This document shows positions 1,504 through 22,071 of a DNA stretch of 39,039 bases, piece by piece; the stretch's first letter is position 1, and each line of letters starts with the position of its first letter. The position numbers and the translations under genes are program-made. Location of the stretch: NCBI GenBank assembly GCA_029880245.1, contig JAOUOR010000010.1, positions 1-39,039 on the forward strand. The letters are read 5' to 3'. The DNA is from Alphaproteobacteria bacterium (lineage in GTDB: Bacteria > Pseudomonadota > Alphaproteobacteria > Micavibrionales > Micavibrionaceae). Below the pieces are notes generated by a model. That model did not search any database and had not been told where the DNA came from. It saw only the letters and a list, made by a program, of their open reading frames with translations.

Positions 1504-1589
1504 CGTCATTGCACGGCTTGTCCGTGCAATCCATGGATTACCCGCACAGGCCACACGCTTTATGCGCGTGTAACAGGCGGGTAATGACG
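1504..1589. repeat. Double-hairpin palindromic repeat, copy 1 (86 bp, intergenic)
   Basis: The element starts with CGTCATT and ends with AATGACG, so its ends are inverted repeats. Each half folds into its own hairpin: left GCACGGCTTGTCCGTGC, right ACCCGC...GCGGGT with a nested ACACGC/GCGTGT hairpin inside. The centre is AATCCATGGATT. The same architecture and arm sequences recur inside flgA at 21964-22023. It lies between the 3' end of flbD and the orphan gene, flanked by further GC-rich hairpins (CGCCGC/GCGGCG at 1486-1499 and one at 1599-1616). Confidence 0.85.
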
Positions 1590-21054: not shown

Positions 21055-22071
21055 TTAATTGCTAATGACGGCAACTTGCTTTTTGCCAATGATTTGAGCT
21101 TGGAGTGCTTGGTTGCTGCTGATGTTTACAACACGGATGATGTCACCTTTTGCGCCGCTTTCCAGTGCCTTTACCTGAGTGCTTAAGGAAAGTGGACCGT
21201 TGTTCAGTAAGATTGTTACAAGCTCGCCGCGTGAGATGATCTGCGGAGCGACGAGATCAGTGAACTGGATCGGGCGACCGGCTGCTACTAATCTGCGCGG
21301 GGACATTCCGATGAGTTCCTCGGCTGCACCAATTGTATTACGGGTAAATTCCGTTTCAGGGATTTTGATTAAATGAATATCTTTTTCTGTGATGATATTG
21401 CCGCGTGCCATGTTTTCTAGCAAAACCGGTACTTTGACAACGGGCTGTATTGTACCGCTAATCGTGAAATTCTGGATCGGGTTATCGGCTGATGGTGCGG
21501 CTATGGTTGCCGTATAGTTTTTATGCGCCGTATCAACGCTTAAATCCGTGATATCCAGTGAAGCACTCTGATCATAAGGAAGTATTATTTCTTGATACCG
21601 GGCAGGGATCTGTAGGGCATAATCACCATAGACGCCTTTAGCTTGCAAGGCTTCTTTAATACGGGAGTTCATGATTTCTTTGGAGATGACCGTCGCTTTG
21701 CGGGATATACGGACTTTTTGCTCGTTACTCGTTGGTCGCCAGTCTAGCCCTACAGCTTTTGCTACGCGTAGTAATGTACGCGCATCAAGGATCATGTCAT
21801 CACCGGGGTGGGGGGCTGCACCAAGGATGCGGTCTTCTTCATACTCTAGTCCATAAAAGATGTCGCCCAGCTTTATGGTGTTATCTGTGATAATACTGTT
21901 TTCCTTAATGCCTATTGTGGCATGGGCAGGCAGGGTTAATATCATGCAAAGCATAGAAGAGATCGTCATTGCACGCTTTATGCGTGCAATCCATGGATTA
22001 CACGGACAAGCCGTGTAATGACGTCCTTCAATTGATATTTTTACTTGCTTCATTGCTTTACTACCCTTCAT
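21055..22071 (-). CDS. flgA: Flagellar P-ring assembly chaperone FlgA, with an in-frame palindromic insertion
   Basis: FlgA is a periplasmic chaperone for the P-ring protein FlgI. The 338-residue frame has the SAF-type C-terminal part: GNIITEKDIHLIKIPETEF, then LIGMSPRRLVAAGRPIQFTDLVAP and ALESGAKGDIIRVVNISSN. Residues 17-36 are encoded exactly by a 60-bp palindrome (see the repeat entry), followed by the hydrophobic core ISSMLCMILTLPAHA of a signal peptide. The translation start is probably the second in-frame ATG (22053), which has AAGGG nine bases upstream; either start leaves the insertion in the coding sequence. A third candidate, the ATG at residue 35 within the palindrome, has no good ribosome binding site. 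It lies between flgG and flgH. Confidence 0.9.
   Translation of the reverse strand: MKGSKAMKQVKISIEGRHYTACPCNPWIARIKRAMTISSMLCMILTLPAHATIGIKENSIITDNTIKLGDIFYGLEYEEDRILGAAPHPGDDMILDARTLLRVAKAVGLDWRPTSNEQKVRISRKATVISKEIMNSRIKEALQAKGVYGDYALQIPARYQEIILPYDQSASLDITDLSVDTAHKNYTATIAAPSADNPIQNFTISGTIQPVVKVPVLLENMARGNIITEKDIHLIKIPETEFTRNTIGAAEELIGMSPRRLVAAGRPIQFTDLVAPQIISRGELVTILLNNGPLSLSTQVKALESGAKGDIIRVVNISSNQALQAQIIGKKQVAVISN
21964..22023. repeat. Double-hairpin palindromic repeat, copy 2 (60 bp, inside flgA)
   Basis: CGTCATT...AATGACG inverted ends, a left hairpin GCACGCTTTATGCGTGC, centre AATCCATGGATT and a right hairpin ACACGGACAAGCCGTGT. The right arm is the reverse complement of the left arm of copy 1 at 1504-1589 apart from the end bases. 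Its length is 20 codons and its boundaries coincide with codons 17-36 of flgA, with no stop codon in the used frame. Confidence 0.9.

Follow-up and report, generated by a model that had tools for sequence, protein, structure and literature searches.

The flagellar gene flgA of the window, by which we mean the whole 39,039-nt stretch of DNA analyzed here, from a Micavibrio-like bacterium, contains a 60-bp palindromic element in the region encoding the signal peptide, and its reading frame continues across it. This raises the question of what the element is, how it may have arrived there, and how a secreted protein tolerates it. The reading that we favor, with a probability of roughly three in four, is that a CGTC-REP dimer was inserted in the FlgA signal peptide and is read through and removed together with the leader, and that such dimers are probably spread by a small GIY-YIG nuclease. 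The relevant features of the window are the following:

21055..22071, minus strand: flgA open reading frame, 338 aa from the first ATG (PF13144, E=3.5e-27; TIGR03170)
22064..22068, minus strand: Shine-Dalgarno sequence AAGGG, common to the closest relative (AAGGGTA, L024)
22051..22053, minus strand: proposed true flgA start, ATG, residue 7
21964..22023, no strand assigned: CGTC-REP head-to-head heterodimer, 60 bp, in frame in flgA
21964..21990, plus strand: REP unit 1, with tag CGTC, 9-bp stem ATTGCACGC/GCGTGCAAT and 5-nt loop
21991..21996, no strand assigned: two abutting CCA tails (CCA/TGG) with zero spacer; tail consensus from PMC3733652
21997..22023, minus strand: REP unit 2, 27 nt
21967..21969, minus strand: rival start ATG (residue 35), from the end of the element
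21919..21963, minus strand: remaining signal peptide, ISSMLCMILTLPAHA, with cleavage expected after AHA
1504..1589, no strand assigned: further copy in the window, 86 bp long and intergenic, containing a nested hairpin

The sequence and coordinates of the element, its inverted ends (CGTCATT/AATGACG), its two hairpins, and its CCATGG center are exactly as described in the first-pass annotation. The stems of both units are 9 bp long (ATTGCACGC and ATTACACGG) and start with AT, and both loops comprise 5 nt. The pattern CGTCATT-N5..25-CCATGG occurs three times in the window versus 0.01 expected, and three occurrences were reached in 0 of 100 shuffles. An alignment of ten clean family members shows two independent hairpins and conserved ends; in this alignment, the double-hairpin fold has 99.1% of its cells paired and seven pairs changed on both sides, a covariation matched by 0 of 500 shuffles. 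A single long hairpin was ruled out as the conserved structure, since it shows no pair changed on both sides. The RNA of the flgA element folds with −28.4 kcal/mol (z −6.3). Because the canonical CGTC dimer consists of 2 × 30 bp (two times the CGTC tag, a 9-bp stem, a 5-nt loop, and a CCA tail), its 60 bp are a multiple of three. Among 38 distinct oriented sequences of this length, one frame is open in 31, another in 18, and the third in 1 (50/114). That the element spans 20 codons without a stop (residues 17–36 of the 338-aa reading frame) is correct, yet for these reasons less remarkable than it looked. The two commonly open frames usually carry an in-frame ATG, either from the center (CCATGG) or from the end (AATGACG), and insertion of a CGTC dimer can thus supply a start codon, as at 21964–22023.

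The element is a head-to-head heterodimer of the published CGTC-REP superfamily (Di Nocera, De Gregorio, Rocco 2013, PMC3733652). That paper defines a CGTC-REP by an unpaired CGTC (or TGTC) tag, an 8–9-bp stem that begins with complementary A and T, a loop of 4–5 nt, and a short unpaired tail with the consensus CCA. Each unit of the flgA element has an unpaired CGTC tag at one end, stem and loop lie within these ranges and show covariation, and the tails form the CCA/TGG center. Like the published elements, those described here are heterodimers, occur as many mostly intergenic head-to-head dimers (21 of the 22 examined copies in the own genome lie outside recognizable genes), and are in some cases inserted in frame; unlike them, the flgA element has no spacer between its units. 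The GTAG REPs with their RAYT transposases do not fit, since the tag is CGTC and the own genome contains no match to PF01797. The same search finds PF01797 in 5 of 14 control genomes, and RAYT is accordingly not supported as the mobilizer. This agrees with the statement in PMC3733652 that CGTC-REPs have no dedicated transposase, with their movement and that of the related Rickettsia elements being left open there.

The annotation had regarded the flgA insertion as an independent new case of what is established for Rickettsia. This is not supported: PMC3733652 equates the Rickettsia elements RPE-4 and RPE-6, which occur in frame in genes, with CGTC-4 and CGTC-1, respectively, and it already records CGTC-REPs inserted in frame in genes of free-living alphaproteobacteria; dimers or groups of 20–30 codons account for more than half of these insertions (RPE-1 is treated there as a separate class of longer insertions). 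By this equation the flgA element resembles RPE-4 and RPE-6 in being a CGTC-type sequence in frame in a gene, but the order of the host differs. New here are two observations described below: copies recur in signal peptides, and the repeats are linked to a gene for a GIY-YIG nuclease.

A covariance model of the family found 24 places at E <= 0.1 in the 2.15-Mb own genome, 22 of which were examined; the other two are weak matches (E 0.01–0.1). The related copy noted at 1504–1589 is real and intergenic, with an extra hairpin nested in one of its arms. When copies were counted as the annotation had proposed, the flgA copy was the only one among the 22 to lie inside a recognizable gene. Open reading frames of 86–129 aa at five other copies (L003, L006, L015, L018, L077) were judged spurious, as none matched a Pfam family in a search that covered this size range. 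About six own copies (1504–1589, L009, L055, L056, L076, L081) are larger composites in which the loop of one arm holds a second hairpin; some have additional G+C-rich palindromes at their borders. A second, longer type of CGTC-tagged palindrome, with stems containing CCTAGAAT, is present at L078:2001-2087 and L079:2001-2089 and matches the model weakly. One copy (L075:2001-2063) is located between MurG-type and Mur ligase genes (Pfam), and its terminal ATG opens the longest reading frame of the ligase.

Across genomes, the family is unevenly distributed. At E <= 0.001 the model finds matches in 13 of 38 genomes (own included); G006, the closest relative, has a single weak match. We compiled a census of 134 places in 15 genomes (own included), with weaker or unlisted matches of G010, G011, G037, G007, and others left aside; the protein scans covered 142 genomes each, and the rows followed up were a choice among the matches listed, mainly long open frames. 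The census contains five in-frame insertions in real proteins, namely the flgA copy and the following four:

L092, G117 (Micavibrio sp. UBA5703): LptA-type protein (LptD_N/LptA-type domain; NCBIfam LptA score below the curated cut-off), ahead of the hydrophobic core
L058, G012: 253-aa protein with a signal-peptide-like start and no family, ahead of the core
L126, G012: AcsA (acetate-CoA ligase), inside the enzyme
L167, G117: TrmB-type methyltransferase (PF02390; NCBIfam TrmB below cut-off), inside the enzyme

Thus, three of the five copies (flgA, LptA-type, 253-aa) precede the hydrophobic core of a signal peptide. Given the small target, n=5, and signal peptides assigned by eye, we treat this apparent enrichment as a lead. 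The flgA copy and the LptA-type copy (L092:1501-1560) are identical at 60 of 60 bases and are read in different frames; this identity between two genera of the same family suggests recent spread. The LptA-type orthologue of G021 (71%) lacks the element. Reading frames at L096, L100, L102, and L163 of other genomes were not counted as genes, as they had no Pfam match. Apparent N-terminal extensions of RdgB (L098), DprA (L061), an aldehyde dehydrogenase (L101), a TonB receptor (L180), a peptidyl-tRNA hydrolase (L182), and a solute-binding protein (L071) were assigned to the intergenic copies, since in each case the element is followed by what looks by eye like a normal start.

FlgA was found in 53 of the 58 genomes searched, own included. 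None of the 29 relatives' flgA loci examined, out of 52 other matching genomes, carries the element. Because of this absence, we infer an insertion specific to this lineage. Between the FlgG stop and AHA we count 162 nt in the own genome, 102 nt without the element, and 95 nt in a 72%-identical relative. The FlgA n-regions are too divergent to define an empty site to the exact base: the DNA alignment of flgA with G006 placed the gap elsewhere than at the element. When the element is disregarded, a normal-looking signal peptide indeed remains, and a tolerant insertion site, as the annotation had proposed, is plausible from the sequence. Its in-frame position also stands, but the residue numbers probably need revision: the closest relative reads MKHKIIYKALGLIICIIFAIPAHA with AAGGGTA ahead of it, and the own AAGGGTA precedes the ATG of residue 7. 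With this likely start, the element would correspond to residues 11–30 of the real protein.

According to our model, a non-autonomous mobile palindrome, the CGTC-REP dimer, would have been inserted between codon 10 of flgA and the hydrophobic core in this lineage. Translation from the old start at 22053 would pass through the element and add RHYTACPCNPWIARIKRAMT to the positively charged n-region. Since the leader is presumably cut off at export, mature FlgA would be unaltered and the insertion would survive. Most likely, FlgA is translated from residue 7 through the element, with a 30-residue n-region. Read-through is favored because the Shine-Dalgarno sequence and the ATG match those of the relative, the pairing of the start site is kept, and the ATG at the end of the element is buried. 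In the computed folds, the unpaired probabilities of the Shine-Dalgarno sequence and the ATG are 0.28 and 0.72 with the element versus 0.30 and 0.69 without it, so that the predicted pairing of the start site is nearly unaltered, whereas the ATG at the end of the element is placed in a stem.

It is unlikely, by comparison, that the element is untranslated, with FlgA starting at residue 35 or 40 and the repeat lying in the leader RNA. Such a start is conceivable: many REPs at the beginnings of reading frames have been argued to be extragenic owing to mis-called starts (PMC3733652), canonical CGTC dimers offer an ATG in their AATGACG end, and MTISSMLCMILTLPAHA could serve as a minimal leader. 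That leader would lack a basic n-region, though, and the ATG of residue 35 has an unpaired probability of 0.0 and no visible Shine-Dalgarno sequence ahead of it, whereas the older start keeps the one that is common to the closest relative. Moreover, there is no ATG between the element and the core in the LptA-type case, although there the central ATG would be in frame. We consider it improbable that the hairpin has been retained for an effect on the translation of flgA or on the stability of its mRNA. Its fold is very stable and starts about 30 nt past the proposed start codon, and post-transcriptional roles are favored for many REPs (PMC3733652), but the computed accessibility of the start hardly changes, none of the 29 relatives' loci has the element, and members of the family are also found in genes unrelated to flgA.

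Nor does it seem at all probable that the insertion harms FlgA export and that the gene is heading to decay. In favor of such damage, an n-region of 30 residues is long, and cysteines and a tryptophan come with the element; on the other hand, the reading frame is intact, the chaperone domain is kept, and n-regions of ~20–30 residues without any repeat appear in some relatives if their first ATG is the start (e.g., L031 and L047). An assembly artefact, in which a repeat copy was misjoined into flgA, is very improbable indeed. Such an error could arise in a draft of 125 contigs with many related repeats, yet the other full-length copies listed in the own genome are at most 91% identical, none of the other 21 examined copies is identical, the reading frame fits, and the 39-kb contig has intact flagellar genes on both sides of the element.

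Several CGTC elements of other genomes flank a small open reading frame of ~96 aa, which encodes a GIY-YIG catalytic domain (PF01541, E=1.1e-13). Its relative in the PDB is 1zg2 (UPF0213; E=2.2e-6), and no NCBIfam family matched. Genes for this nuclease were found in 86 of 142 genomes of the order. Our sample consists of 70 of the order's matches (30 loci returned, the other four from the own genome, and 36 more mostly from further down the list) and 15 of 33 plasmid records. CGTC hairpins are located within 250 bp of 58 of these 85 genes (35 on both sides, 23 on one side, 27 none). Of the 79 genes in the first set, 31 had them on both sides and 23 on a single side, and at 25 none were detected; six plasmid loci (Neisseria, Neorhizobium, Aeromonas, Shinella, Spirosoma, Sinorhizobium) gave four with both sides and two with none. 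No such hairpins were detected at the control genes (flgA 0/29, lptA 0/20, together 0/49) or in 477,540 bp of shuffled sequence. At the 30 best genes, one hairpin was found in 57,555 bp beyond 500 bp versus 53 in 14,892 bp of flank. The nearest hairpins of the 31 two-sided cases have their tags outward in 17, are direct repeats in 11, and have their tags inward in 3. Genes between or beside CGTC-REP hairpins include L240:1193-1480, L271:1582-1872, L274:1716-2003, L286, L288, and others, in many genomes of the order and also in Azospirillum, Rhizobium, Shinella, Neisseria, and Aeromonas records. In G129, the GIY-YIG frame (L274:1716-2852) lacks a stop and continues in frame across half a REP to join a PrmC-type gene, thereby forming one 378-codon reading frame, in which the PrmC-type part matches PF17827 from profile position 17.

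The type of hairpin also varies together with the nuclease. Across genomes, nuclease similarity tracks stem similarity (Mantel test on the 54 hairpin-bearing genes among the first 79, before the six later loci: r=0.467, reached by 0 of 2000 permutations). This correlation may arise because gene and hairpins are inherited together as one linked unit. Within genomes, the stem is shared by 12.5% of 16 gene pairs. Unit 2 of the flgA element (27 nt) is identical to hairpins at GIY-YIG genes in G073, G117, and G129 (L284, L286, L287). A co-occurrence tally, made by hand from the 142-genome protein scan and the GIY-YIG search with a 60% identity cut picked after the data had been seen, gave 7/8 versus 21/134 (Fisher p 4e-5). 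These sequence comparisons show that gene and hairpin are either co-inherited or matched in specificity.

In Azospirillum lipoferum 4B, sufB and sufC are separated by a unit of nuclease gene and CGTC hairpins, two of them downstream and one upstream; the upstream side also has a mismatched second arm (by eye). The sufB-sufC gap of A. ramasamyi, A. oryzae, and Azospirillum sp. B510 (pieces 95.6–96.6% identical) contains neither the unit nor a detected hairpin, and the same holds for A. thermophilum (90.1%). Nuclease gene and hairpins thus form a unit that occupies one Azospirillum site but is absent from that site in relatives. A sufB-sufC-like stretch of Shinella sp. PSBB067 carries a unit whose stem differs.

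Taken together, the GIY-YIG nuclease is the best candidate for the mobilizer of CGTC-REPs: its gene lies between CGTC hairpins elsewhere, and by catalysis that we infer from this association it would move the short dimers. The own genome contains five GIY-YIG genes, and the clade nearest to the matching hairpin type is not represented among them. One gene (L314) is located between hairpins of another stem type, and no hairpins were detected at L305 and L315–L317. The own dimers may therefore owe their movement to an enzyme acting in trans or to one that the genome has since lost. The REP-rich genomes G012 and G010 likewise lack the nearest nuclease clade. The arrangement resembles REPtrons, i.e., RAYT genes flanked by GTAG REPs, in that a nuclease gene lies between REPs and many free pairs of the same type occur elsewhere, but the enzyme has a GIY-YIG fold and is not a tyrosine (Y1) transposase. 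The Ssn family consists of small proteins with a GIY-YIG catalytic domain and site-specific single-strand cleavage, and a 2025 paper in Nature Communications reportedly describes it as cutting single-stranded Neisseria repeats. The protein described here shares with Ssn its small size and GIY-YIG catalytic domain, and the gonococcal homologue is flanked by CGTC hairpins in our data; compared with Ssn, specificity and activity of the Micavibrio-type enzyme are putative. In the literature searched we found no paper on a link between GIY-YIG proteins and REPs, and no GIY mention in the accessible part of the 2025 RepRanger paper; part of this link may already be in print.

A broader proposal follows, to which we give even odds. 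CGTC-REPs, including RPE-4/6, Neisseria dRS3, and the flgA insert, would be short non-autonomous forms of an element whose long form is a GIY-YIG gene between CGTC hairpins and whose nuclease would recognize its own stem, and copies in genes would survive best in the n-regions of signal peptides. If this is true, REPs would have a second transposition system alongside RAYT, based on an enzyme whose fold is unrelated. A linked, co-varying nuclease, together with a unit that is missing at the same site in relatives, makes REP movement testable at the bench. In the case of flgA, a mobile palindrome would have lengthened a protein at little cost, since the part in which it landed is removed.
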